Shown: positions 20,312-39,095 of the stretch, piece after piece
Position numbering within the stretch: the stretch's first letter is position 1
Layout of the letters: every line of letters begins with the position of its first letter
Assembly (NCBI RefSeq): GCF_000973085.1
Contig: NZ_CP011280.1
Coordinates: 708,642 to 772,641 of the forward strand
Reading direction: 5' to 3'
From: Sneathia vaginalis
GTDB taxonomy: Bacteria > Fusobacteriota > Fusobacteriia > Fusobacteriales > Leptotrichiaceae
DNA length: 64,000 nucleotides
Notes under the pieces: model-generated
Database searches by the model: none
What the model was told of the DNA's origin: nothing
The model's input: only the letters and a program-made list of their open reading frames with translations
Position numbers and translations under genes: made by a program

Positions 20312-20468
20312 AAAACTTCTTATCCCTTATTTTAAATTTTGAACATACATTTTCTGTTTCAACCCTTGAAACATTAACTATATACATAATCTTGTTATAG
20401 ATAAAAAATATTGCAAATATTACAAACAAGATTTCAATTAATGATAGTATAAAGTGCTTTTTCTTCAT
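20298..20468 (-). CDS. 56-aa single-pass membrane protein, unknown
   Basis: Its ATG shares one base with the stop of the acyl-ACP synthetase/acyltransferase gene (TAATG), a typical coupling arrangement. The protein has a basic start (MKKKHF), one hydrophobic helix (about residues 7-31, ILSLIEILFVIFAIFFIYNK) and a charged tail. A short type II-like membrane protein beside a lipid-modifying enzyme may help anchor it, but this is inference and no family is recognised. Confidence 0.55.
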   Translation of the reverse strand: MKKKHFILSLIEILFVIFAIFFIYNKIMYIVNVSRVETENVCSKFKIRDKKFYENK

Positions 20469-22927
20469 TACTTTTTACCTTTCTTGTAGTTAATAAAGAT
20501 TTGACGACATTCGTCTACAATTTCATCATATGTCTTATTCTCAACACTAACTGAATCTAAAACATCAACAGATATTTTCTTAGGTTTAGGGAATTTACTA
20601 AATCTTGAAAATGCTTCATATGCCCCATTTATTCCTATACATTGTATATTAACATTTAATTCTTTAGCTATTATTGCAAATATCTTTTTAAATTCTGCAA
20701 CATTTCCATCTTTTGTTCTTGAACCTTCTGGGAATATGAATATATTCTTATTTTGTTTCAACACATTAGACATTTGTTCAACACTGTCTTTAATATCTTT
20801 ATCAATATTTACCTTTATTATATTCGCATGATTTGAAATAGCTTTCATAATTGGAGAATTAAAGTATTTTTCTAATGCATAAAAATATGTCTTTTTAAGT
20901 ATTGCATTAGGTAATGCTTGGATAATTCCTGGTGCATCTACAAAGCTTTCATGATTTGCAATAAATATTGTAGGAACATCTTTTATCTTTTCGCTACCTC
21001 TTATACTCATTCTGAAATATATTTTAAATAAAAGCCACAATACAGGTTTAGCAATTAATGGTCCAACACTGTCTTTTAATTTCTTAAATGGTGCATTTTT
21101 AATTATATCACTTAAGTCTATTGTACTTTCATTAAAACTTGTTGATAACTCAGAAATATATTTAGATAACAATCTTAAATTATGGTATTTAGATAAAAGT
21201 TGTTCATCCATTTTTACACCAAAACTGTTTTCTATAAATGATAATAGCTCCATTTGATCTAATGAGTCAAGTCCAATTTCTATTTCAAAATTTTCATCTG
21301 GTCCTACTTCTGTATTTTTTAACTTACCAATATATCCCTTAAGTACCTTATACTCCATTGTATCTGGTTCATTTATCATTTCTTTTTTCTCATTACTTTT
21401 TCCACCAAATATTTCTGGTAACATAAATCTTCTTAATTTACCTACCCTTGTCTTAGGTAATTCTTCTTCAACTAATTTATACTCTAATATTTTTTCATAA
21501 TTATGTGCATTCTTGTTATATATTTGTATAATATCACGAACATAGGTTGTAATATTAGCAATATGCTTTGCAGGAACTATTACAGCTGACAACTTATCAT
21601 TCTTACCAAATACACCAATTTCAGCTATTTTTTCATCAGACATTTCTATTATCTTGTTTTCAATCTTTTCAGGATCTATATTCTTACCATTTGACAGAAC
21701 TATCATTGCATTAGCACGTCCGATAATAGTAATGAAACCATCATCACTTATTGATGCTAAGTCTCCAGTTCTAAACCACCCATCTTCTGTAAAGACTTCT
21801 TTTGTTTTTTCAGGCTTGTTATAGTATCCCTTCATAACCATGGGTCCTTTTAAGCAAAGTTCACCATCTATTATACGTATATCAACACTTGGTAGAGGCT
21901 TTCCTACAGTACCTATTCTAAAATTAGGTCTAACACTACCAGCTACAACTGGTGCTGTTTCTGATAATCCATACCCTTCATAGTAGTTTATACCTAAGAT
22001 TTCAAAGAACTCTATCATCTCAGTATCTGATCTTGCACCACCAGCTATAAAGGTTCTCATATGTCCACCAAAAATATCATGAACTTTTTTAAATACTATT
22101 TTTGAAAACTTCTTGTTATTAACTTTTTTAGCAATAAAGAACATGAATCTAGCTATCATACTACTATTTATCTTATCTTTAATTGTCTTATAGAAAAGCT
22201 TATACACTCTTGGAACAGCAACAAATATTGTTACATTATTATCAGCTAATGCTTTTAATATTTCTTGACTATTTAGTTTATCTACTATAACGACACTATT
22301 CATATTTTCATAGTAATATTCATATAGACAAGTTGCCATTAGTGGTAATATATGGTGATAAGGTAAAATTGATAACATTTGATCAGATGGTTCTACTACA
22401 TCTATAGAATTTAATGCCTTTATTTCACCAATAATATTCGCATATGTAAGCATTATACCCTTTGCATTACCTGTTGTACCTGATGTATATATCATAACAG
22501 CTACATCATCCATTTCTGGAGTATTTAATACTCTTTCATCTTCAACAATACTAAGAGTATAGTCATCTAGGTTATATACCTTTATATCACTAAGATTTAA
22601 GTTATTTAATGCCTTATTAACCATATCTTTTGTACCGTTAGATACAACAACAGCATCAGGATTACAATCATTTATGAAATACATAATTTCTTTATCATTA
22701 CTCATTGCATCTAGTGCAACTGGTATAGCTTTTCTATCCCATATTGCAAAAAAACTAAATACCCATTCTTTTCTGTTTTCTGAAATTATTAAAATATGTT
22801 TCGATTCTTTTACATCTTTGAAAACATTGTTTGACATATATTTAACATAGCCAACCATTTGTGTATAGTTTATCTTATTACCATTTGGCTCAACTATTGC
22901 TAATTTGTCTGATTTATTTAAAAACAT
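20468..22927 (-). CDS. Acyl-ACP/CoA synthetase - ACP - acylglycerolphosphate acyltransferase fusion
   Basis: An 819-aa three-module enzyme. Residues 1-500 are an AMP-binding adenylation domain (MIYTSGTTGNAKGIMLTY; later GWFRTGDLA). Residues about 530-610 form an acyl-carrier domain with the phosphopantetheine site GLDSLDQM. Residues 620-819 are a PlsC-type acyltransferase with NHESFVDAPG (H-x4-D) and FPEGSRTKDG. It resembles the two-domain Aas protein (acyl-ACP synthetase and 2-acyl-lysophospholipid acyltransferase) with a built-in carrier. It would activate free fatty acids and load them on lysophospholipid, for phospholipid repair or use of host fatty acids. A good promoter precedes it. Confidence 0.85.
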   Translation of the reverse strand: MFLNKSDKLAIVEPNGNKINYTQMVGYVKYMSNNVFKDVKESKHILIISENRKEWVFSFFAIWDRKAIPVALDAMSNDKEIMYFINDCNPDAVVVSNGTKDMVNKALNNLNLSDIKVYNLDDYTLSIVEDERVLNTPEMDDVAVMIYTSGTTGNAKGIMLTYANIIGEIKALNSIDVVEPSDQMLSILPYHHILPLMATCLYEYYYENMNSVVIVDKLNSQEILKALADNNVTIFVAVPRVYKLFYKTIKDKINSSMIARFMFFIAKKVNNKKFSKIVFKKVHDIFGGHMRTFIAGGARSDTEMIEFFEILGINYYEGYGLSETAPVVAGSVRPNFRIGTVGKPLPSVDIRIIDGELCLKGPMVMKGYYNKPEKTKEVFTEDGWFRTGDLASISDDGFITIIGRANAMIVLSNGKNIDPEKIENKIIEMSDEKIAEIGVFGKNDKLSAVIVPAKHIANITTYVRDIIQIYNKNAHNYEKILEYKLVEEELPKTRVGKLRRFMLPEIFGGKSNEKKEMINEPDTMEYKVLKGYIGKLKNTEVGPDENFEIEIGLDSLDQMELLSFIENSFGVKMDEQLLSKYHNLRLLSKYISELSTSFNESTIDLSDIIKNAPFKKLKDSVGPLIAKPVLWLLFKIYFRMSIRGSEKIKDVPTIFIANHESFVDAPGIIQALPNAILKKTYFYALEKYFNSPIMKAISNHANIIKVNIDKDIKDSVEQMSNVLKQNKNIFIFPEGSRTKDGNVAEFKKIFAIIAKELNVNIQCIGINGAYEAFSRFSKFPKPKKISVDVLDSVSVENKTYDEIVDECRQIFINYKKGKK

Positions 22928-23110: not shown

Positions 23111-23638
23111 TTATCTTTTTATAATTTCTAACTTGACTCTAGTTAGACCTCTTTGTACGCTTTCTATTGCTTCAAATGCTGCTCTTGTAAGGTCAATAAC
23201 TCTACCTTGTTTAAAAGGTCCTCTATCATTGATTCTTACAACCACTGACTTACCATTTGCTTGATTAGTAACTCTTACTAAAGTACCAAATGGTAATGTT
23301 CTATGTGCAGCTGTTAATAAACGTGTGTTAAATACTTCCCCATTCGATGTTCTTCTTCCGTTCCATTTTTCACCATAAAATGATGCAGTTCCCGCTTGGT
23401 AGTGAGTAAAACTTCTTGAAACATCAGTATCAACATTTGCAGGTTGGTCATTTTTTAATTCCTCTAAGGATTTAAAAACACCATCGTCGATATAAGTCTT
23501 TTTAATAATTTCTTTAATTATATCGGCTTTAATGTTTGATGATTGACTACTTTCCTTATTTCTATGCTTTGATCCTTTTGCAAAACTTGCTGTAGAAAAT
23601 ATGGATAAAACAAAGAAAATAGTAAGTAATTTCTTCAT
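23111..23638 (-). CDS. rlpA: RlpA-like double-psi beta-barrel lytic transglycosylase
   Basis: A 175-aa exported protein. A signal peptide (residues 1-20, ending in STASFA) precedes a charged linker and a C-terminal double-psi beta-barrel (about 85-175) with AGTASFYGEKWNGRRTSNGE, LPFGTLVRVTN and INDRGPFKQGRVIDL, which carry the conserved His/Asp of RlpA. The family cleaves denuded glycan strands at the septum. There is no lipobox, so it may be periplasmic rather than lipid-anchored. It has its own strong promoter inside the end of the neighbouring gene. Confidence 0.9.
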   Translation of the reverse strand: MKKLLTIFFVLSIFSTASFAKGSKHRNKESSQSSNIKADIIKEIIKKTYIDDGVFKSLEELKNDQPANVDTDVSRSFTHYQAGTASFYGEKWNGRRTSNGEVFNTRLLTAAHRTLPFGTLVRVTNQANGKSVVVRINDRGPFKQGRVIDLTRAAFEAIESVQRGLTRVKLEIIKR

Positions 23639-23661: not shown

Positions 23662-23690
23662 AGTATATCACGATTTCAAATCCGTGTCAA
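23662..23690 (-). promoter_or_regulatory. Near-consensus promoter for rlpA
   Basis: On the minus strand TTGACA, a 17-nt spacer and TATACT, with the -35 box and spacer inside the last codons of the 729-aa gene. It is one of the best promoter matches in the window and makes rlpA independent of the upstream accessory operon. Confidence 0.75.
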
Positions 23691-25857
23691 ATTTCAGCAT
23701 ATACTCATCCGTTACAAACACCTGATCATCGTACCTCGTTGCACATTTATAGAAGATTTTCATCTCTTTAGATATAAAAAATATACGAATAATCGCATTG
23801 TCTATATTATCTAAAAATTCTTGATTAAGTCTTGTATCAAGTTCATCTCTTTCATAAAACTCTTTTTTTAAATCCAAATTAAGACTATATACAATATCCA
23901 TTTCACTGTCTTTTATTTTTATATCAAGCTTAGTAACAGTATCTAATTTGTCTATATACCCTATATCTGTTTTTGTTGTATCTAATACTACCTCATATAC
24001 ATCTTTAAAGTTAGTTGCCTCTATTATATACGCCCTTACATCATAAGTAATGTTATTTAATAGCTTTATCTTAGCTAACTCTTCATCTTCTATGTACTCA
24101 TATATCAACTCTAGTATGTATTCATAGTTATCATTATTTACATCAGTGTATTTTATTATCTTACCTGGTATAAATTCTTTTAAAAGGTTGTAGAAAAGTT
24201 CTGATTTAATTATCTTACCCATTAAACAAACACCCTTATATCTCTTCAATAACTCAATTACAGTAAACTTTTTAAAAAAATTATTTAAAAAGTTATATAA
24301 CTCAAGGCATAAAACATACTCTATCATATTTTTTTCTAAATTTGTACTCTTACAATTTAGATAATTATTTAATTCATCATATGCCTCATTTAATAGTGTA
24401 TAATAATTTTTCTTTATTTCATGATATTTTTCTGATACTAGATTTTGATATTTAAAACAATCCGTACTAAATTTAGATTCTATATCATCATAATCTTTAA
24501 ATAAATCATCCTTTACTGCCCTATATCCTATACTATCTATTTTTTTTATTAAATCGTTTATAGAGCATATGGATATATTGATTTTTAATAACTTTAATTT
24601 TAATAAATAAATTATTTCTTTTATTAAAGTATTAAAGTTTAGGTTATAGTTTACGGTGTTAATATTAGTATTAACTGTAATATCGTAGTTTATATCTTTT
24701 TCAAATATATTAAATTGATTTTCTGATATATTTAAATTATCAAACTCAGAAACAATAGCTAAAAACTTCTCACTTTTGTATGTCTTATTAAGCCTTTTTA
24801 TCTTAGAATATGACAATACAAATGGTAAATCAATATATACAAATCTATCATCTTGTATATTTAGTCCTATGCTGTATATTTTGGTATACCTGCATTTAGA
24901 GTATGCACATATTTTTTTTATCAAATATTCTATAAACTGATTAACAAGTTGCTTTTTTGGTACTATTTTACTTTGCAAATAGTCATCATACACTTCTATA
25001 TTAGAATTTATATCTAAAAAAAATTTAGACATATCTTGAAAACAACTAGCATAAAAATTTAATTCTTTTGCCAGCACCCTATCTTTTGCATTTTCAAAAT
25101 AGTCTATTAAAAAATTGTCATTTTGTATTTTATGAATATACATTAAAAAATCTTTAGTAAAATACTTACAGTACACCTTATTATCAATAAATAAAATGGG
25201 AAAAGGACTTTTAACTTCCTTTAACTTTTCTGCTTTAAGCTCAAACAACTTTATACTATAGCAGGGTATCTTTTCTGGTATTACATCTATTCTTTTATTG
25301 AAATATACATTTCTAACAATATCCCCCATAGTATTTTCAAAAAAGTACATTTTTGGGTTTTTGTAGTATTCATAATCAAAGTTTAATCTTTCAACATATT
25401 CACTATTTATTTTATACTTTCTATACACCTTATCTTCATATTTAGTATCTTCTACTAAACTTAATATACAGTAAACATAGCCATTGTCAGCTGTTATCAT
25501 ACAAATACTAGTTGAAATATGTAAATTTTTAGAAACTAATACATAGTAATTGTCATCCTCACTAAAATCTGCATTTTCAAATATCTTTATACTATATGGT
25601 ACTTGAATATCTGTTGCCTCAATAGGTAGTTCTCTTAACTTCTTGTCAAATAGTTCTTGAAGTCTAAAAAATCCTTCATAATCAAGAGTCAAAATCTTTT
25701 TTTCTGTATTATCTTGTCTATATAGAAGTATTAGGTCTATAAGTTCACTTTTGGTTTTATCACTTGCAAATATATTAATTAATTTTTCATTTATAGCTAT
25801 TTTATATAATTTATCATAGGTCTTTAACTTTAAATCCTCTCTTGTATAGTAACTCAT
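23668..25857 (-). CDS. 729-aa protein of contractile-system-like operon, unknown
   Basis: I do not recognise this protein with confidence. Residues about 8-50 (DLKLKTYDKLYKIAINEKL and then KSELIDLILLYR) fit the helix-extended-helix of SAP/Rho_N-like domains. The remainder is a long mixed alpha/beta protein without membrane helices. Near residues 545-575 the pattern GVCLMGKIIKSELFYNLLKE followed by FIPGKIIKY recalls the C-terminal subdomain of Hsp70/actin-fold proteins, but no nucleotide-phosphate loops are obvious. It is the last gene of the eight-gene operon and overlaps the kinase-like gene by 44 nt, so it probably serves the same apparatus. Confidence 0.6.
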   Translation of the reverse strand: MSYYTREDLKLKTYDKLYKIAINEKLINIFASDKTKSELIDLILLYRQDNTEKKILTLDYEGFFRLQELFDKKLRELPIEATDIQVPYSIKIFENADFSEDDNYYVLVSKNLHISTSICMITADNGYVYCILSLVEDTKYEDKVYRKYKINSEYVERLNFDYEYYKNPKMYFFENTMGDIVRNVYFNKRIDVIPEKIPCYSIKLFELKAEKLKEVKSPFPILFIDNKVYCKYFTKDFLMYIHKIQNDNFLIDYFENAKDRVLAKELNFYASCFQDMSKFFLDINSNIEVYDDYLQSKIVPKKQLVNQFIEYLIKKICAYSKCRYTKIYSIGLNIQDDRFVYIDLPFVLSYSKIKRLNKTYKSEKFLAIVSEFDNLNISENQFNIFEKDINYDITVNTNINTVNYNLNFNTLIKEIIYLLKLKLLKINISICSINDLIKKIDSIGYRAVKDDLFKDYDDIESKFSTDCFKYQNLVSEKYHEIKKNYYTLLNEAYDELNNYLNCKSTNLEKNMIEYVLCLELYNFLNNFFKKFTVIELLKRYKGVCLMGKIIKSELFYNLLKEFIPGKIIKYTDVNNDNYEYILELIYEYIEDEELAKIKLLNNITYDVRAYIIEATNFKDVYEVVLDTTKTDIGYIDKLDTVTKLDIKIKDSEMDIVYSLNLDLKKEFYERDELDTRLNQEFLDNIDNAIIRIFFISKEMKIFYKCATRYDDQVFVTDEYMLKFDTDLKS

Positions 25858-26419
25858 ATTTTATTTCACCTATTTTCCTTATATAATTATGTATATCATC
25901 TGCTTTAATATCAAATTTAACATTAAATATCTTATAACCTATATACGTTAATGAATTTAAGTCATTTATACTGTCTTTTTTATTAAAAGAGGTGGATAGA
26001 GCAAAGTCTATCATATACACCTCTTTATCATGATTTAGCATTAAATTTGCTAAACTTAAATCATTATGAATCAAATTATTAATATGTAAAACTTTAACCA
26101 TATTCAGAATCTTCATGAAAATTTTAAATTTTTCTTCAAACTCCATATATGAGAATTTTAAAGACGCAAGAGTTCTACCATCAATTTTTTTAAATGCTAA
26201 TTTAGTTTTTTGCATATTTTTCTCAACTGATAGTAGTTTAGGTATGAAAGAAATACCTAAGTTTAATAGCCTCATATTTATATCCATTTCATTTTTGACT
26301 ATATGGTCTACAAAATCATATCTGTGATAGTATTCTTTTATGACATAATCGTCAAAGATAAAAACATTCGATATTTTTATATACGTGTCGCTAACTCCTA
26401 TTTCCATATTTGCCACCAT
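25814..26419 (-). CDS. Small Ser/Thr kinase-like protein
   Basis: A 201-aa protein with the core of a protein kinase-like fold. A Lys in DDYVIKEYY and a Glu in KNEMDINMRLLN could form the ATP-binding pair. The catalytic loop is LIHNDLSLANLML (H-x-D-x4-N) and the metal motif is MIDFALS, with DFA in place of DFG. No glycine-rich loop is clear and the C-lobe is short, so it resembles minimal Bud32/RIO/LPS-type kinases. ATG at 26419 was chosen because AAGGAAG lies just upstream; it overlaps the PP2C-like gene by 22 nt. With two FHA proteins nearby, a phospho-switch controlling the apparatus is plausible. Confidence 0.7.
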   Translation of the reverse strand: MVANMEIGVSDTYIKISNVFIFDDYVIKEYYHRYDFVDHIVKNEMDINMRLLNLGISFIPKLLSVEKNMQKTKLAFKKIDGRTLASLKFSYMEFEEKFKIFMKILNMVKVLHINNLIHNDLSLANLMLNHDKEVYMIDFALSTSFNKKDSINDLNSLTYIGYKIFNVKFDIKADDIHNYIRKIGEIKYELLYKRGFKVKDL

Positions 26420-28176
26420 TTGCTTCCTTTTGATTTTTTTATTGCATACGCTAGTTTTTTCTTTAATTTATCTACTTTATCACCAGTGTAATTTATCTTT
26501 TCACAGTATTGTATAGCTCTTTGATATTCTATTATTGCATCATCTATATTATCTTCTTTTATACAACTATCGCCTTTTTGTATACATGAATTGATGCTAC
26601 GTATGATTTGTTCCCGATTATTACTTACCTTTCTTTCTTTTTTTATATTATTGTTTTGACTTTTTTCCAATTCGTCTCTCATTGTTTTCTTTATTTTTTT
26701 GATATGATCACTATTTATTAAAAGCTCTTCTAATAGACCGTGTTTTTTAAATATTAGATTTGACTCTAACATTGCTTCTAGAGCTTCTCTGCATTCATAG
26801 TTATCATTCAAATTAATTGCTTCGGCTCTTAATTCAATAGCATGTCTCCTATCAAACTCCTTGACCTCTTCAAGTTTTTTGATTTTTTCCTTAATCTTCA
26901 TACTATTCAATTCGTCGTCCAACATATCATAACGTTTTAGCATTTCAAAGTAACTATTCAAAGTTAAATTTACATTTTTTTCCTTGTTTTCTTCTGCTTT
27001 TAAATTAAGTGCTTCTATCTCTTCTAATATCTCATTTATCTTTTCATCGCACTCTTGTATTTTGTCCTTAAGACTTATACTTATCTTATACTTTAAGCAT
27101 ATCGTTTCTACGCTTTCAAAAATAGTCTTAGACTTTTTAAACTTAAACTTGTTAAATAATTCAGTAGCTTCATCAATTTTTTTATCTATGTTATCTAAAT
27201 CATTCAACATTGATATATTAAGCACGGCTTCTTTTTTTAAGTTATCAATATTTAGTATTTCTGTATGACTACGAGAAATATTTTCAAATAACTCACGAGC
27301 ATTAGGGAATTTATATTTTTCTACACATTTTTTAGCTAAGTCCATCTTATCTTTTACATCTTTTAAAACTTCAACATCTAATCTTAATGTTTTAATTTTA
27401 TTCTTATCATCAATGAACTTTACCTCTTTTTTGCGTGGTATGATTAGAAATAGTTTTTTGTCTAAATTTTTATATACTTTTTCTAAGTTTTTTAACTCTA
27501 TACTTATATTTTGAACTTCATTGTTTTTTATATATATTTTAAGGTCATTATTAATATTATCTATTTTATTTTCATATCTTTTTATTGTCCAGTAATTAAA
27601 GATTATGTAGATAATAAAGAAAAGAAAAATGAAACTGATTGTTAAGATTTTAAACCATTTTTTATTATTTTTTGTGGCATTATCTATTTGCCTTGTTTTT
27701 TTGATATTAATAGTAAGACATGCTAGTTCTTTTGAAAACAATTTTAGTACATCTCCACTTTCAAGTGCTTTTTCTTCTACTATATATCCATCAAGTTGTT
27801 TAGTCCCCCCTTGATTAATAGCTTCAAATTCTACTACATCATTTCTAAATAACTTTAATGTGATATCTCCTAGAATAACAGCATTAAATGTATTAGCGTT
27901 TGTTTGAATAATAGTTAGAACCTCAAGATTCTTGTAATCCATATTTAAACTCTCTACTATGTACATCATATATTTTGGATTATACTCTAAATCTTCTTCT
28001 ATACACTTACTAGCAATATTTTCTACTATTTGTTTTGATATTTTATCTACTTTCTCATTTTCTTTTACCTTCGAATAAATATATACTACTATTCCATCTT
28101 TTTCAAGATAACCAAAATATGAACTTTCGTTTTCAATAAACTCTGTATTTAGACATTCTAAAACTACATGTTCCAT
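26398..28176 (-). CDS. Membrane-anchored degenerate PP2C-like protein with helical repeat domain
   Basis: A 592-aa protein. Residues 1-165 have the layout of a PP2C phosphatase (SSYFGYLEKDGIVVYIYSK, later VILGDITLKLFRND), but the metal-binding Asp expected near the N-terminus and in the D-G-x-G-G motif is absent, so it is probably a pseudophosphatase. One membrane helix lies at about residues 175-196. The remaining ~400 residues are charged coiled-coil and TPR-like helices, ending IKKSKGSKWWQIWK. The ATG at 28176 was chosen for its GGAG site; it overlaps the previous gene by 13 nt. Confidence 0.6.
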   Translation of the reverse strand: MEHVVLECLNTEFIENESSYFGYLEKDGIVVYIYSKVKENEKVDKISKQIVENIASKCIEEDLEYNPKYMMYIVESLNMDYKNLEVLTIIQTNANTFNAVILGDITLKLFRNDVVEFEAINQGGTKQLDGYIVEEKALESGDVLKLFSKELACLTINIKKTRQIDNATKNNKKWFKILTISFIFLFFIIYIIFNYWTIKRYENKIDNINNDLKIYIKNNEVQNISIELKNLEKVYKNLDKKLFLIIPRKKEVKFIDDKNKIKTLRLDVEVLKDVKDKMDLAKKCVEKYKFPNARELFENISRSHTEILNIDNLKKEAVLNISMLNDLDNIDKKIDEATELFNKFKFKKSKTIFESVETICLKYKISISLKDKIQECDEKINEILEEIEALNLKAEENKEKNVNLTLNSYFEMLKRYDMLDDELNSMKIKEKIKKLEEVKEFDRRHAIELRAEAINLNDNYECREALEAMLESNLIFKKHGLLEELLINSDHIKKIKKTMRDELEKSQNNNIKKERKVSNNREQIIRSINSCIQKGDSCIKEDNIDDAIIEYQRAIQYCEKINYTGDKVDKLKKKLAYAIKKSKGSKWWQIWK

Positions 28177-28649
28177 ACGAAATGTTCTCCACAAAATTTA
28201 ACAAAAACAAGTTTTGTATCGCCTATTTCTATTAAACTATAGTTCTCAAGTTGTGTTGTTTCATATACCGCCTTCTTATTTAAGTATACAATATTACCTG
28301 CTTGACCTGGAGAAATTACAAAAACTCTTTGTTTTTCATTGTATGTGATAATGAAGTTATCAGTTTTTTCTATTTTTTTGTCTAATATACATACGTCCAT
28401 ATCTTCAGTACTACCTATAAAGTTTCTTTTATCAACTAATCTATAGTCTTTACCCTTTTCTATTCCTTCAATACAGATAAGCCACCCTACAACTGGAACT
28501 ATTTTTATAGGAATGTATGCAACCGTTCCTCTTTCTTCATCTGTTTCCAATAAGTCTTGTGTTTTATTAACTGTATTTTCACAATAAGGACAAAACTTTA
28601 TACTTGTACTGTCATAAAAATGACCTTTTTTACATCTTTCTAATTTCAT
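28164..28649 (-). CDS. Zinc-ribbon and FHA-like domain protein
   Basis: A 161-aa soluble protein. The N-terminus carries CKKGHFYD and CPYCEN, a short zinc-ribbon. Residues about 60-155 have FHA topology (GWLICIEGIEKGKDYRL, NFIGSTEDMDVCI, IEIGDTKLVFVKF), but the Ser and Asn that bind phosphothreonine are not clearly conserved. The combination of zinc ribbon and FHA is known from type VI-like and signalling loci in other bacteria. It likely reads or scaffolds the kinase/phosphatase-like partners encoded next to it. Confidence 0.65.
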   Translation of the reverse strand: MKLERCKKGHFYDSTSIKFCPYCENTVNKTQDLLETDEERGTVAYIPIKIVPVVGWLICIEGIEKGKDYRLVDKRNFIGSTEDMDVCILDKKIEKTDNFIITYNEKQRVFVISPGQAGNIVYLNKKAVYETTQLENYSLIEIGDTKLVFVKFCGEHFVWNM

Positions 28650-28661
28650 AATTATACCCTT

Positions 28662-29324
28662 TTAATTTAGGAGTATTTTTATACCATGAATATGTATAAT
28701 ATCTCCTACTAATATATTCTCACCCTTAAATGCTATTAAATTAATTTTCCTATTGTTTGTTTTTATTACATCCGTACCATTTTTAGAGCCCTCATCTACA
28801 ACATAGAATTTATTGTCTTGTTTATAGATTCTTGCATGTCTCCTACTTACAAAATCACTATTTATTTGGTCTGTAAGATCTATATCCACAATGGCACTTT
28901 TTGAATTTTTACCTATAACGTATTCATTCTTCAATACCTTATATATATGCTTATCATCGCCGTAATCATCTAAGACTATTATTTCATTAATATTATATTT
29001 CTTTCTAATTAACTCTCTTTTTTTATCTTTTTCACGTTTATCAAATTCATAAATCTCTTTTTCCATTTTTTTGGAAATAACCTTATTTATGAACAACACA
29101 TAAACGCTATTGTACATTGTAAAAAATGTTAGAAGTAACAAGAATGTATTTTTAGGTTTTTGTGAAATTATGCCGTATATTATTACAATAATAATCATCA
29201 ATATTACTACTGTATACTCAGGTTTTAAAAAGTTTTTCCTAATAGAGATTTTTTTTATGTCCTTAGACTTTACATTTTTAAATATATATCTAAAAACTCT
29301 ATTCAAGATAAAAAGATTCCTCAT
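28662..29324 (-). CDS. Membrane protein with canonical FHA domain
   Basis: A 220-aa protein with two membrane helices (about residues 36-52 and 57-78) and a cytoplasmic FHA domain (about 125-220). The FHA signature is complete: EYVIGKNSKS, VDIDL, SDFVSRRHARIY and VDEGSKNGTDV, so phosphothreonine binding is likely. In type VI secretion systems an FHA protein controls assembly through threonine phosphorylation, and the same logic is inferred here. It overlaps the upstream gene by 26 nt. Confidence 0.8.
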   Translation of the reverse strand: MRNLFILNRVFRYIFKNVKSKDIKKISIRKNFLKPEYTVVILMIIIVIIYGIISQKPKNTFLLLLTFFTMYNSVYVLFINKVISKKMEKEIYEFDKREKDKKRELIRKKYNINEIIVLDDYGDDKHIYKVLKNEYVIGKNSKSAIVDIDLTDQINSDFVSRRHARIYKQDNKFYVVDEGSKNGTDVIKTNNRKINLIAFKGENILVGDIIHIHGIKILLN

Positions 29325-30096
29325 AATCCTCTTTTTCCTTCTTTTCCTTTTTCATATTACCCTTTAATATACTTGCTAATTTTTTTATTATCTCACTGTT
29401 TGTAATTTCGTTAATATTAATAGAAATCCCTAGCTTATTTTCTAAGTATGCAATTAATAATTCCTTTTTAACTATGCTATTTAAACATAGAAAGATAAAA
29501 TTTAAATCAATATTTTCTAATCTAAGTTTTTGACTTGCAGTATATGCCCATTTTTTTAAGATTATGGGTGATAGTGTTGAAAATTCACTATTACTTGCAC
29601 TATACTTTTGATTAATTAAACTTATCGCATTAAATTCATCTCTAAATTCTTCAAAATAGTTTGTTTCATCACGTATTTGTGCACCATGTCTTAAAATTAC
29701 TTCAAATAACAAGAATTCATTTTCTACTTGTTCATCACTTTTAACTAGAGTTAAACTTATTACATTTGAAAAGTATAGTTCTGTATTATTGCATTTGACA
29801 TCAACTATACACTTATATCTACCTTCATCTGTTGGTAAGCCTATCTTTAAGTCTGAATTTAGCCAAAATATCTTTTTATTTATTTTTATAAGGCCCTTTT
29901 TAATTAAAAAAGTATTTTCATCACCTATATATTTTATTTCAAACCCAGATACTACACCATCACTTGAAGAAGTGTACTTAGCATTTATGTAGTCTATTAG
30001 ATTAAAGCTTATTAAATTTAAACTATCACTTGTAATTAACCCATAATGTTCAAATTTGGGTATTTTTGTTGAAAAACTAGTTTGCACTATAACCAC
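29299..30096 (-). CDS. 265-aa possible baseplate/tail protein
   Basis: No secure family. The N-terminal half has a beta-rich pattern seen in tail and baseplate proteins (a segment with VVSGFEIKYIGDENTFLIKK followed by GLIKINKKIFWL, then RYKCIVDVK). The C-terminal half is helical and ends in a very charged tail (KKEKKEKEDYEESFYLE). It lies between the tube-like gene and the FHA gene, overlapping the tube-like gene by 20 nt. Position after the sheath and tube genes suggests a baseplate or adaptor role, but this rests on context. Confidence 0.45.
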   Translation of the reverse strand: MVIVQTSFSTKIPKFEHYGLITSDSLNLISFNLIDYINAKYTSSSDGVVSGFEIKYIGDENTFLIKKGLIKINKKIFWLNSDLKIGLPTDEGRYKCIVDVKCNNTELYFSNVISLTLVKSDEQVENEFLLFEVILRHGAQIRDETNYFEEFRDEFNAISLINQKYSASNSEFSTLSPIILKKWAYTASQKLRLENIDLNFIFLCLNSIVKKELLIAYLENKLGISININEITNSEIIKKLASILKGNMKKEKKEKEDYEESFYLE

Positions 30097-30496
30097 CTTC
30101 TACAGCTATAGAACTAATTTTTTCTTTTTTCTGTCTCAATAAAATTCTAAATACTCCTGTACCATTTTTTACATTGAAACTTTCTTCATAATCAACTATG
30201 AATATATTAGGTAAATTTACTTTTCTGATAACTGTCCCTGCTGAAACTACTTCAAATGTTAAATCCTTATATGCATCTTGTGACTCTGATGGAACTAATG
30301 ACCACGAACACAGCTTTTTGGTCATATCATCCTTTTCATTAGTTACCTTACCGCTTATTTCAAGACTAACATTTAGGTCAGTTGCCCTAGCATTAGAGTC
30401 ATTAGGTGTATCTGATATATACCTTACATCCAATACTCTATCTTTTTCTAATACTATTTCATCGTTATTACCTTTTATCACTACTTTAAACCCCAT
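30077..30496 (-). CDS. Tail tube (Hcp)-like protein
   Basis: A 139-aa all-beta protein, the usual size for Hcp and phage tail tube subunits. The order fits the tube fold: an early strand GFKVVIKGNND, a polar loop with NARATDLNVSLEISGKV, a central WSLVPSE, a strand pair DLTFEVVSAG, and the end strand GTGVFRILLRQKKEK. The ATG at 30496 follows a GGGGG ribosome site; an in-frame GTG lies 9 nt upstream. It comes 20 nt after the sheath-like gene, the position of tube genes in contractile tails. Identity is inferred; no direct motif proves it. Confidence 0.55.
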   Translation of the reverse strand: MGFKVVIKGNNDEIVLEKDRVLDVRYISDTPNDSNARATDLNVSLEISGKVTNEKDDMTKKLCSWSLVPSESQDAYKDLTFEVVSAGTVIRKVNLPNIFIVDYEESFNVKNGTGVFRILLRQKKEKISSIAVEGGYSAN

Positions 30497-30516
30497 TATT
30501 ATCACCCCCTTTCAAT

Positions 30517-32640
30517 TTATTCTTTAGAATTTATCATAAGATTCAAGTGCTTCACATCACCTGCAAAGCTTAAATTTAAACTGCATGTATTAGAGTCTAT
30601 TGAATATGTCATATCATCTTCAGCTCTTAATATTGCATTTACATACATTGAATTTTTTGACCATAAACTTTTAGTACTATTAGGACTTGAGCTAAAGAAG
30701 AAATTAAGCCTATCTTCTTTAAAATCTGTTGTTTCATATCTCATAATCCTTTCTATATACGTACATGTCAATGTTTTGTATATAGGTTCATAGTTATATC
30801 CTCCAGATTTATTCATACTTCTAGCCTTATACACAGTTACATTATCAACAACATTCCCGTTATATATTGCATTCTCACTTGCAAATACAAAACCATAATT
30901 AGCCTCATTTATACTATTTTTAATATCAACTGTATATCCTGAAATTTCCTTAGGTAAGGTTGTTTTTATTTCAAAACTATTCTCGCTAGATTCAATATTT
31001 ATTCTAACTCCTGGTATGCTAGGATTTACATTTTTAAACCTATCTTTTAGGTATCCTGGACACTGATAAGCTGATATTAATCCAGCTGCAGCATAGCTTG
31101 CATCTATATATAGTCCATTAATGTAATAGAATAGCTCTTTATTCTCATCACCCTTAGTCATTCCTATAGTTACTTTAGACTTATTCTTAGGTATTATTGT
31201 AAAGTTTGGAAATACTGGTATAAGGTATTCAGAATATGTTTTATCTTCTAAAACCATAGTTTTTTTCTTGTACTCTTCAACACCATTTATTGAAAAAGTT
31301 TTGAAATCTGTTTTATCGCTTGCTTGGAAGTTGAAAAATAGTTGTATCTTGTATTTTTCTAATAAGTCTGCAATATTTAAAATATCATTAAACTTATTCT
31401 TTTCTAAAATTTCTTCCGTATCGCTACCCATAAACTTTTTCTTTATTTTTTGATTTTCTATACTTACGTCATAATTAACATTAGGTAATATTCCAAACCA
31501 TATAGTATTTGTAAAATCATTCTTATTATTTACAGTATTTAAATATATTGCCAATGCCTTTTTGCTTTTAGGATTCATCAGTAAATCTACTTTAAAGTTT
31601 GTAATTAATAGTTTAGGTTTCATTTGCTTATACTTCGTGTTGTATTGATCAAAGAAAATTTTAATACCTAATACCTTTTTTACTAATTCTTTTGATATAG
31701 TTATAAAGTCATCTTGCGATTGCTTATATATCTCAAGGTATGAATTGTAATTTGTAATTTCTTTTTCAATATCTATTTCATTTAATGTAACACTATTTGG
31801 AACATAAGATCTTGATATTAAATTAGCTACATATGTACTCTTATACTCGACAGTTTCGTTATAGTCGTCTATAAAAAGTTGAGCTAAGTTTTCTGTGTTT
31901 TTTTGATTTGACTCAATTTGTAAAAGATTAGAAGTTGTATTAATTTCTGTAATTTCAAGGCTACCATTTTCAGCTATTGTTAATAGCCCAGGCTTTATCC
32001 TATCAAGCTTATTTAACGGATTATTAGACTTATCTAGCGATAATCTAACCTCTATATCCTCTATTGCTAATGGTAACATAGAAAGTACATTGTTATAGTT
32101 TTTAGATGCCTCTAAAAACGCATAATTCAACTTATCACCAATTTCCTTTTTTTCAGGATTCTTATCATCTAAATTCTCATACTTATCATAAAGATAATTT
32201 ATTTCTTTTCTTGATTGTTTTAGATTCTCTATTATTTTCTTAGGTGATAACAACTCTAATATATCTGTATAATTAAAGTTAACATTCTTAACTTTATTAT
32301 TATTACGTGCATCCAATAAGGCTAATAGCATTCTAAAAAATGCATTATCCTTTCCAAGCCTTATCTCTGTCACACATTCACTGGGTATATTTACATCTTT
32401 TTCTAATGTATAACATACCTTATTTTTATTTGCATCAAAATAACTATATATAGTAGGCTCAAATTTAATTAAGAAATCATCAAAGCTTTCTACTAATAAT
32501 TCTTTGTTAATCTCTTCTATCATGTCGTCACTCAAGCTATTTTGAAGTTCTGTTTCCCCGATTATAGTTAATAAATTTAGCTTATCAGGATTAATTTGTT
32601 CGAACAATATTGTTCTATTTGTCTGCGATATTTTTTCCAT
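30517..32640 (-). CDS. Contractile sheath-like protein (TssB-TssC type fusion)
   Basis: A 707-aa protein, the first gene of the operon. Residues about 50-112 match the TssB pattern: SFDDFLIKFEPTI followed ~40 residues later by LLALLDARNN. The central part includes a helix and strand like the TssC core (LEKYKIQLFFNF). At about residue 509, GLYIDASYAAAGLISAYQCP recalls the tail-sheath segment found near the sheath C-terminal domain, and the last ~80 residues are strand rich. A fusion of small and large sheath subunits would explain the length. The ATG at 32640 was chosen for its GGGAGGG site. Pattern-level evidence only. Confidence 0.55.
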   Translation of the reverse strand: MEKISQTNRTILFEQINPDKLNLLTIIGETELQNSLSDDMIEEINKELLVESFDDFLIKFEPTIYSYFDANKNKVCYTLEKDVNIPSECVTEIRLGKDNAFFRMLLALLDARNNNKVKNVNFNYTDILELLSPKKIIENLKQSRKEINYLYDKYENLDDKNPEKKEIGDKLNYAFLEASKNYNNVLSMLPLAIEDIEVRLSLDKSNNPLNKLDRIKPGLLTIAENGSLEITEINTTSNLLQIESNQKNTENLAQLFIDDYNETVEYKSTYVANLISRSYVPNSVTLNEIDIEKEITNYNSYLEIYKQSQDDFITISKELVKKVLGIKIFFDQYNTKYKQMKPKLLITNFKVDLLMNPKSKKALAIYLNTVNNKNDFTNTIWFGILPNVNYDVSIENQKIKKKFMGSDTEEILEKNKFNDILNIADLLEKYKIQLFFNFQASDKTDFKTFSINGVEEYKKKTMVLEDKTYSEYLIPVFPNFTIIPKNKSKVTIGMTKGDENKELFYYINGLYIDASYAAAGLISAYQCPGYLKDRFKNVNPSIPGVRINIESSENSFEIKTTLPKEISGYTVDIKNSINEANYGFVFASENAIYNGNVVDNVTVYKARSMNKSGGYNYEPIYKTLTCTYIERIMRYETTDFKEDRLNFFFSSSPNSTKSLWSKNSMYVNAILRAEDDMTYSIDSNTCSLNLSFAGDVKHLNLMINSKE

Positions 32641-32669
32641 AATCCCTCCCATATTTGCTTCTTGATATT

Positions 32670-36783: not shown

Positions 36784-37935
36784 ATGAAAACTTTTAAATA
36801 TTTATTAATGCAAATGTTCTATTGGGCATGTTTTTGTGCAATATTCTCATTTGCAAATCCGTACCTTAGCTCTAAGGGCGTACCAGTTTCAACAATAGGA
36901 ACAATTTTAGCAATAGCTTCTATACTATCAGTAATAATACAACCTTACTTAGCTAAACTGATAGACACATATGAATTCTTTACAGTTAGAAGCTCAATTT
37001 TGCTATCACTAATTGTTCCAGTATTTGCAATAATTTTAATGATAATATGTGATAATCCACTAATACTATACACTAGCTATACTATAGCTTTATGTGGATT
37101 TTTAAATGTACAAACTTTTATGTATCCCTTCATATTTGAATATATGAATAGAGGCTACAAAGTTAATTTTGGTTTTGCTAGAGGTATGGGCTCAATATCA
37201 TACGCCATAGCCTCATATACACTAGGAACATTAAGTGCAAAATACTCACTTAACTTTTTACCCATGTATTTTCTAGTGTTAACAATTCTAGTTATCCTTA
37301 TGATACTAACATTTGAACCACTTGGTAAAATTAAAAAGCATGAAGAACATCTACCTGATGTAAGTCTTCGCGATTTTTACAATAGAAACAAGAGTTTCTT
37401 TGTTGTACTTTTAGCAATTGTTTTAATTTTCTTTACTGCTACTGCATTTAATAATTTCTTAAGAAATATTTTAGTTAGCATAAACTATAGTAACTATGAA
37501 GTAGGTATTTGTTTCACACTATCTTCTTTAAGTGAATTCCCAGTTATGGCATCAATACCATTACTACACAAAAAATTCAGTTACTACACTCTTTTCTTAG
37601 TATCAGCAGTAGGATTTAGTTTAAAGGCAATTATGCTGGTTATTGGTGCTTTATCTGGTAATATATACTTAATCTATTTTTCACAACTATTCCAATCACT
37701 AGGTTTTGCTATATACATACCAGTTTCACTATTCTACATAACAGATACTTTTGAAACAAGAGATGTAATTAAAGCTCAAGCATATATAGGTACTGCTCTA
37801 ACATTAGGAAGTATTTTAGGTAACTACATAGGTGCACAAATTTGTCAAAATATTTCTATCTTTGCACTATTGGTTATAAGCACAATAATTTCAATGTTAG
37901 GTACTGCATTAATAGTTAAATGTGCTAAAAAGTGA
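36784..37935 (+). CDS. MFS transporter, copy 1 of a tandem pair
   Basis: A 383-aa, 12-helix major facilitator protein of the LacY/nucleoside-symporter-like (MFS_1_like) type. Motif-A-like residues appear in QPYLAKLIDTYEF. It starts 11 nt after rho with a GAGGTAAT ribosome site. It is about 92 percent identical to the next gene, and the differences cluster at residues about 210-255. The substrate is unknown. Confidence 0.88.
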   Translation: MKTFKYLLMQMFYWACFCAIFSFANPYLSSKGVPVSTIGTILAIASILSVIIQPYLAKLIDTYEFFTVRSSILLSLIVPVFAIILMIICDNPLILYTSYTIALCGFLNVQTFMYPFIFEYMNRGYKVNFGFARGMGSISYAIASYTLGTLSAKYSLNFLPMYFLVLTILVILMILTFEPLGKIKKHEEHLPDVSLRDFYNRNKSFFVVLLAIVLIFFTATAFNNFLRNILVSINYSNYEVGICFTLSSLSEFPVMASIPLLHKKFSYYTLFLVSAVGFSLKAIMLVIGALSGNIYLIYFSQLFQSLGFAIYIPVSLFYITDTFETRDVIKAQAYIGTALTLGSILGNYIGAQICQNISIFALLVISTIISMLGTALIVKCAKK

Positions 37936-37943
37936 GGTAATGA

Positions 37944-39095
37944 ATGAAAACTTTTAAATATTTATTAATGCAAATGTTTTATTGGGCATGTTTTTGTGCA
38001 ATATTCTCATTTGCAAATCCATACCTTAGCTCTAAGGGCGTCCCAGTTTCGACTATAGGAACGATTTTAGCAATAGCTTCTATACTATCAGTAATAATAC
38101 AACCTTACTTAGCTAAACTGATAGACACATATGAATTCTTTACAGTTAGAAGTTCAATTTTGCTATCACTAATTGTTTCTGTGTTTGCAATAATTTTAAT
38201 GATAATATGTGATAATCCACTAATACTATACACTAGCTATACAATAGCTTTATGTGGTTTTTTAAATGTACAAACTTTTATGTATCCCTTCATATTTGAA
38301 TATATGAGTAGAGGCTACAAAGTTAATTTTGGTTTTGCTAGAGGTATGGGTTCAGTTTCATACGCTATAGCCTCATACATACTAGGAACATTAAGTGTAA
38401 AATACTCACTTAACTTTTTACCTATGTATTTTCTAGTATTAACAGTTCTAGTTATTCTTATGATACTAACATTTAGACCACTTGGTAAAATTAAAAAGCA
38501 TGAAGAACATCTACCTGATGTAAGTCTTCGTGATTTTTACAATAGAAACAAAAGTTTCTTTGTTGTACTTCTATCTGTTGTACTACTTTTTTTCACTCAT
38601 AATGTACTTAATAATTTTTTAAGAAATATATTATTAAGCGTAAATTATGGAACTTATGAAGTAGGCGTTTGCTATACAGTAGCTTCTATAATTGAATTTC
38701 CAGTTATGGCATCAATACCATTACTACATAAAAAATTCAGTTACTACACTCTTTTCTTAGTATCAGCAGTAGGATTTAGTTTAAAGGCAATTATGTTAGT
38801 TATTGGTACTTTATCTGGTGATATATACTTAATCTATTTTTCACAACTATTCCAAGCACTAGGTTTTGCCCTATACATACCAGTTTCATTATTCTACATA
38901 ACAGATACTTTTGAAACAAGAGATGTAATTAAGGCTCAAGCATATATAGGTACTGCTCTAACATTAGGAAGTATTTTAGGTAACTACATAGGTGCACAAA
39001 TTTGTCAAAATATTTCTATTTTCGCACTATTGGTTATAAGCACAATAATTTCAATGTTAGGTACTGTATTAATAATTAAATGTGCTAAAAAGTGA
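37944..39095 (+). CDS. MFS transporter, copy 2 of a tandem pair
   Basis: A 383-aa paralogue of the preceding gene. By eye about 30 positions differ and 17 of them fall in one stretch of about 45 residues (from VVLLSVVLLFF to SIIEFPV in this copy), covering a membrane helix and adjoining loop. Elsewhere the copies are nearly identical, which suggests recent duplication or gene conversion with local diversification, perhaps for a different substrate range. Confidence 0.88.
   Translation: MKTFKYLLMQMFYWACFCAIFSFANPYLSSKGVPVSTIGTILAIASILSVIIQPYLAKLIDTYEFFTVRSSILLSLIVSVFAIILMIICDNPLILYTSYTIALCGFLNVQTFMYPFIFEYMSRGYKVNFGFARGMGSVSYAIASYILGTLSVKYSLNFLPMYFLVLTVLVILMILTFRPLGKIKKHEEHLPDVSLRDFYNRNKSFFVVLLSVVLLFFTHNVLNNFLRNILLSVNYGTYEVGVCYTVASIIEFPVMASIPLLHKKFSYYTLFLVSAVGFSLKAIMLVIGTLSGDIYLIYFSQLFQALGFALYIPVSLFYITDTFETRDVIKAQAYIGTALTLGSILGNYIGAQICQNISIFALLVISTIISMLGTVLIIKCAKK

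Follow-up and report, generated by a model that had tools for sequence, protein, structure and literature searches.

In the T6SS, the sheath is built from two chains, TssB and TssC, the N-terminal part being supplied by TssB; the spent sheath is taken apart by the ATPase ClpV, and post-translational control uses kinase, phosphatase and FHA genes. In phages and eCIS, a sheath made of one chain is the norm.

The T6SS has been described for Gram-negative bacteria (PMC5349215). The Francisella-type T6SS possesses two sheath chains, IglA and IglB, with which TssB and TssC have been equated, and a DUF4280 spike, IglG (PMC5349215). Orphan genes encoding PAAR_H2 (DUF4280) and Phage_GPD VgrG proteins occur in Firmicutes (PMC8651086; PMC5349215). 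In the 2021 paper no machine genes were detected near these genes, and in both papers the existence of a machine behind them is speculation only (PMC8651086; PMC5349215); for DUF4280 in Gram-positives, a functional phage-like translocation system has been raised as a possibility (PMC5349215). By word search, the main text of a 2025 CIS survey (PMC12210884) and that of an eCIS survey (PMC8213781) do not mention Fusobacteria. A literature search, with bioRxiv and most subscription journals outside its scope, returned no description of the machine presented below, although one may exist in print.

This report describes a locus of Sneathia vaginalis lying in a stretch of 64,000 nucleotides (the window, C1:708642-772641 of a 1.33-Mb genome; G+C 27.6%). 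A 707-aa protein encoded there is probably the one-chain sheath of a chromosomal T6SS-like contractile injection machine of Bacillota and Fusobacteriota. The main finding is the system around the sheath, beyond the one-chain sheath itself.

The system resembles the T6SS in a sheath fold nearest to TssC (by Foldseek), an Hcp/TssD-like tube, a VgrG-like hub, a PAAR-like spike and the presence of FHA, kinase and PP2C control genes in the operon. It differs in having one sheath chain instead of two, in its mostly Gram-positive hosts and in an Hsp70-like ATPase paired with a J protein, whereas ClpV, TssJ, TssL and TssM were not recognised by Pfam in the operon proteins scanned, nor were the gp25/TssE, TssK and membrane-complex families. 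With eCIS and cytoplasmic CIS (Afp, PVC, AlgoCIS, Streptomyces CIS) and with tailocins it shares a single-chain sheath, the alignment running from about residue 8 to 699, but the Pfam sheath, gp25 and CIS AAA+ families were unrecognised here, the spike is of the DUF4280 type and the operon holds signalling genes. The orphan DUF4280 and VgrG genes belong to the same spike and hub families and occur in similar hosts; here, in contrast, a single operon brings together sheath, tube and ATPase. A DUF4280 spike is also common to this system and the Francisella-type T6SS, from which it differs in its single sheath chain.

The Operon of Sneathia vaginalis

Nine minus-strand genes follow one another in the window from 32652 to 23111, separated by short gaps or overlapping (Table 1). 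The order of the first eight (sheath, tube, 265-aa protein, two FHA proteins, 598-aa protein, kinase, 729-aa protein) is identical in seven Leptotrichiaceae loci (the window, L029-L032, L040, and L041); the RlpA-like gene, the product of which may be an accessory cell-wall factor, adjoins the operon in 5 loci only. The 265-aa protein, a member of the conserved family F11, gave no convincing family match in Pfam; its gene follows the tube gene in Fusobacteriota and the Hsp70-like gene in Bacillota. In the Bacillota relatives of the 598-aa protein (family F0) Pfam recognises PP2C (E=1.8e-7) and, weakly, PP2C_2 (E=0.021).

Table 1. Genes of the window and of the second locus in the S. vaginalis genome
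Locus	Position	Strand	Length (aa)	Assignment	Basis and remarks
Operon	30517..32652	-	711 (707 from 32640)	Single-chain contractile sheath (predicted)	AF2, Foldseek, VIA
Operon	30077..30505	-	142	Hcp/TssD-like inner tube protein	Pfam TssD E=0.011, under the curated cut-off
Operon	29299..30096	-	265	Conserved F11 protein, baseplate/adaptor candidate	Position only
Operon	28662..29324	-	220	FHA-domain protein	Pfam FHA E=7e-11, residues 135-212; hydrophobic N-terminal segment (by eye)
Operon	28164..28649	-	161	Second FHA-like protein (Yop-YscD cytoplasmic/FHA)	PF16697 E=5.3e-9; Cys-rich N-terminus (by eye)
Operon	26398..28194	-	598	Membrane anchor/signalling candidate	Clusters with family F0; membrane segment (by eye), C-terminal part helical/TPR-like
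Operon	25814..26419	-	201	Protein kinase-like protein	RIO1 E=9.7e-10, Pkinase E=5.2e-8
Operon	23668..25857	-	729	Degenerate relative of the Hsp70-like ATPase of Bacillota operons	hhalign
Operon	23111..23638	-	175	RlpA-like double-psi beta-barrel protein	DPBB_1 E=2.5e-25
Window	20468..22927		819	Fusion of AMP-binding, acyl-carrier and acyltransferase domains	Near the sheath operon in 4 loci
Window	36784..37935 and 37944..39095		383 each	Tandem pair of nearly identical transporter-like genes	Recent duplication
Second locus	about C1:349265-355579			Hub and spike locus, comprising the six genes below
Second locus			344	F6 relative	hhalign 5.4e-15
Second locus			184	Weak F9 relative	hhalign 1.2e-3
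Second locus			133	Weakly tube-like	7e-3
Second locus			413	Hub	hhalign to relatives' hubs E=3.5e-32
Second locus			264
Second locus				DUF4280 spike with C-terminal CHAP-like domain	E=4e-16, 56.5 bits (cut-off 26.3)

An internal ATG at 32640 is probably the true start of the sheath gene, since the N-termini of most relatives begin there and read M-x-x-I-x-QTNRT; the resulting product has the 707 residues given in the first-pass annotation of this DNA. Among 33 genomes from the window's own family, 23 have an intact homologue, which rules out a chance open frame. One further genome (G012) retains a fragment with a stop (L024, G012:C1:1178653-1178766) and lacks DUF4280 throughout, and its system is a decayed one.

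A Predicted Contractile Sheath in a Single Chain

Sequence searches with the sheath protein returned no family at E<=1 in Pfam, PHROGs, or NCBIfam, and none of 46 members of its family matches any known sheath family. No sheath was matched in the PDB by phmmer or profile search, the best profile matches there, to a viral NS1 protein (E 0.002, about 39 residues covered), being taken as chance; a profile of the N-terminus likewise found no sheath sequence.

An AlphaFold2 model based on the 46 sequences has a mean pLDDT of 68.9 and a pTM of 0.69, with 143 of 711 residues at pLDDT <50, and is thus a single model of middling confidence. Foldseek matched it to seven PDB chains at E<0.001 (5urw, 5mxn, 5ojq, 5urx, 5myu, 3j9g, and 3j9o), every one a T6SS TssC/VipB, the phage P1 sheath coming next at E 0.022. 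Sheaths account for 48 of the 50 VIA matches listed, with Z from 13.8 to 22.0 (8kee at the top with Z 22.0, 3.7 A and 304 residues), after which Z falls to 6.6 (mGlu receptors), and one of three BFVD matches below 0.001 is named tail sheath protein. On the basis of these matches the predicted fold is that of a contractile sheath, complete in one chain. The first-pass annotation had proposed from the sequence a single-chain sheath of a T6SS-like machine, which the AF2 model, Foldseek and VIA bear out, and had pointed to a sheath-like segment near residue 509, which does lie within the region superposing on TssC.

The same annotation had suggested that the protein is a natural fusion of TssB and TssC, or an evolutionary intermediate. 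The machine would then be a true T6SS branch in which two genes became one, a possible reading though in our estimation a rather unlikely one. The Foldseek ranking, with TssC chains above all other sheaths, accords with it, but VIA gives equal or higher scores to single-chain eCIS and phage sheaths (Z up to 22.0, compared to 19.3 for the best T6SS match), which call for no fusion. The model contains a long helical insert (about residues 118-335) between the N-terminal and TssC-like parts, which falls where the break between TssB and TssC lies in the T6SS and includes a low-confidence stretch, residues 208-251, that could be a linker. Among the VIA matches listed, the alignments of all 39 single-chain sheaths (from phages, tailocins, eCIS, Streptomyces CIS, and archaeal CIS) start at model residue 1-13 and extend to about 700, whereas the nine T6SS TssC chains begin at residue 276-321 and end at about 699, so the part that TssB supplies in the T6SS sits here in the same chain. 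We take the first ~100 residues to occupy the position and do the job of TssB. The T6SS has two sheath chains; here the sheath fold is covered by a single chain of 707 aa.

Sequence comparison, in turn, argues against the fusion, as hhalign detected no relation of the sheath family to either TssB or TssC. A profile of residues 1-215 (46 relatives) scored E=0.16 by hhalign against seven true TssB proteins, controls giving 0.27-0.5 and the strongest local match falling at residues 123-144; in a separate profile-profile test 12 of 200 shuffles equalled the score and a reversed profile beat it, so that the TssB-like stretch formerly read at residues 50-112 does not rise above chance. Residues 1-215 modelled alone gave a low-confidence model (pTM 0.51) that matched helical bundles; the lack of TssB chains among its matches speaks neither for nor against a TssB fold. 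Since one chain is usual outside the T6SS and the sequence shows no recognisable kinship with TssB or TssC, the notion of a fusion or intermediate is unsupported. The TssB profile left out an 816-aa unannotated frame of a Leisingera plasmid (the frame of L190:2001-2405), in which an initial TssB domain (46% to L188) is followed by a long extension and TssC is not matched.

Distribution and Operons of Relatives

An alignment query of 84,980 species genomes recovered 332 stretches encoding relatives of the sheath, the best 80 of which were counted as Fusobacteriota (5) and Bacillota (75); a single-protein query of genome contigs, unlike the alignment query, found none. Leptotrichia is among the genomes carrying relatives. 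In a tree of 58 sheaths one branch (96/87) splits the 17 Fusobacteriota from the 41 Bacillota rows.

Clustering of 97 loci (the window and L029-L124, several of them truncated by contig ends) placed the sheath in 96, the PP2C/TPR protein in 83, the tube in 79, the Hsp70-like ATPase in 76, the first and second FHA proteins in 74 and 71, F6 in 65, the J protein in 63, the kinase in 60 and F9 in 56. All machine parts lie in one continuous operon in Clostridium beijerinckii (L123 and L149), which comprises sheath, two tubes, J protein, two FHA proteins, PP2C, PP2C-like/TPR, F6, F9, Hsp70-like ATPase, F11, a 196-aa protein, VgrG-like hub, a 203-aa protein, Imm11, DUF4280 and a second hub. None of the families F6, F9, and F11 matched a known baseplate protein family, and they are baseplate candidates by position only. 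The 190-200-aa protein that precedes VgrG in Bacillota had been considered as a DUF1795-type chaperone, for which it shows no Pfam match. In Paenibacillus and Brevibacillus a protein of ~680 aa is encoded divergently beside the sheath (family F10, 47 loci; e.g., L055:7386-9467), with, by eye, a von Willebrand-like domain and a membrane segment.

No relative was found among 50,697 phage records (by tblastn) or among 72,556 plasmid records, which rules out a prophage or a plasmid gene. Descent from a phage tail, tailocin or eCIS by domestication, the machine being released by lysis and not bound to the cell, would account for the single-chain sheath and for the phage and eCIS sheaths being its best VIA matches; we nevertheless hold it to be quite unlikely, considering the absence from phage records, the lack of recognised lysis, fibre, and tape-measure families among the operon proteins scanned, the kinase/phosphatase/FHA genes reminiscent of T6SS control and the dedicated ATPase, which suggests that the machine is reused.

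Tube, Hub, and Spike

The tube gene lies directly downstream of the sheath gene in relatives. TssD is matched by 18 of 28 members of the tube family (best E=6.5e-5), and the sole PDB profile match is Hcp1 (6bdc, E=0.16). Leptotrichiaceae also harbor extra tube-family genes (L034:10910-11803, L035:3-869, L033:4613-5068), some of about twice the length (289-297 aa); the longer products are possibly tube proteins with cargo domains.

The operon in the window is without hub and spike, both of which are found at the second locus of the same genome (Table 1). A profile search of that genome for F9 returned nothing at E<=10. The hub contains Phage_GPD, Phage_base_V, and DUF2345 in that order, the first at E 5.2e-5 and 23 bits, under the curated cut-off of 30.1. 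The CHAP-like domain of the spike scores 17.1 bits, under the cut-off of 26 that is exceeded in a relative (L033), and likely represents a cell-wall-hydrolase effector. Downstream of the spike/effector gene is encoded a 311-aa protein (L128:1589-2524) with a signal peptide (by eye) and a weak likeness to autotransporter barrels (E 0.055).

A DUF4280 gene occurs within the fetched sheath stretch or ~5 kb of its end in six of eight genomes, and on other contigs in the remaining two (L055 and L112). Among 33 genomes of one family, 22 carry both sheath and DUF4280, one the sheath alone (G019), two DUF4280 alone (G004 and G025) and eight neither (Fisher p=2.7e-5, kinship being ignored). An intracellular CIS as in Streptomyces, which acts on the producing cell itself, would suit the Gram-positive distribution and the Streptomyces CIS sheaths among the top VIA matches, but is very unlikely, as cell-wall hydrolase domains on the spikes and their immunity-like neighbours (Imm11, LprI) indicate competitors as the target.

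Hsp70-Like ATPase and J Protein

The intact operon ATPases of other loci (family F3, 838-895 aa) are Hsp70-like by profile comparison. Eleven of them aligned by hhalign to eight DnaK-type proteins at E 2.2e-5, the two phosphate motifs being aligned with each other, compared to 0.17-0.5 for controls; in a shuffle test 0 of 40 scored as high. Pfam HSP70 was matched by 4 of 16 members (best 0.0031), with single matches to ParM and FtsA. A gene for a J-domain protein (E=6.8e-28) adjoins the tube gene.

The degenerate Leptotrichiaceae versions match intact F3 at E=1.7e-48 (hhalign) and DnaK at E=0.69. The 729-aa protein of the window and its counterparts in six related loci are devoid of both phosphate 1 and phosphate 2 motifs. 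The J gene is present in 67 of 79 loci with an ATPase frame, and the second phosphate motif is kept in 66 of these 67, L083 being the sole exception. The 12 loci without J consist of the seven Leptotrichiaceae loci without either motif (window included), four downstream-only stretches the genomes of which are represented by another locus, and L110, where the motifs are kept and J is absent from a short stretch. As the genera concerned are related, the seven losses may count as one event.

We infer from the gene neighbourhood that the Hsp70-like/J pair takes over the task of ClpV at the sheath, which is the boldest step of this argument; alternatively, J or Hsp70 could have a part in assembly. 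The lineage of the window has an operon without J gene and an ATPase without motifs.

Proposed Mechanism and Implications

In the T6SS-like machine favored here, the 142-aa Hcp/TssD-like protein would form an inner tube enclosed by stacked sheath subunits, and both would sit on a baseplate, for which the candidates are the 265-aa protein and, from the second locus, those of 344 and 184 aa. The tip of the tube would be formed by the VgrG-like hub and the DUF4280 (PAAR-like) spike, which in S. vaginalis bears the CHAP-like domain. A firing trigger might be relayed via the kinase, PP2C-like, and FHA proteins, and contraction would expel tube, spike, and effector, with neighbouring bacteria as the most likely target. 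Across most lineages the dedicated Hsp70-like ATPase and its own J protein would then dismantle and recycle the spent sheath; the Fusobacterial lineage without the pair may fire once or borrow housekeeping chaperones.

The chances are about even, in our judgement, that these machines constitute a separate class of Bacillota and Fusobacteriota and the counterpart of the T6SS that has long been suspected in Gram-positives, with a one-chain sheath and an Hsp70-J pair in the place of ClpV, one Fusobacterial lineage having lost the pair. The gene cluster of the Gram-positive relatives may be the machine that earlier authors guessed at without finding. As candidates for sheath, tube, and ATPase share one operon, the question of a Gram-positive machine is now testable in ordinary species of soil and industrial kinds (Paenibacillus, Brevibacillus, C. 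beijerinckii). We know of no Hsp70/J system that works on a sheath; if the pair does act on the sheath, this would be a new role for Hsp70/J chaperones.
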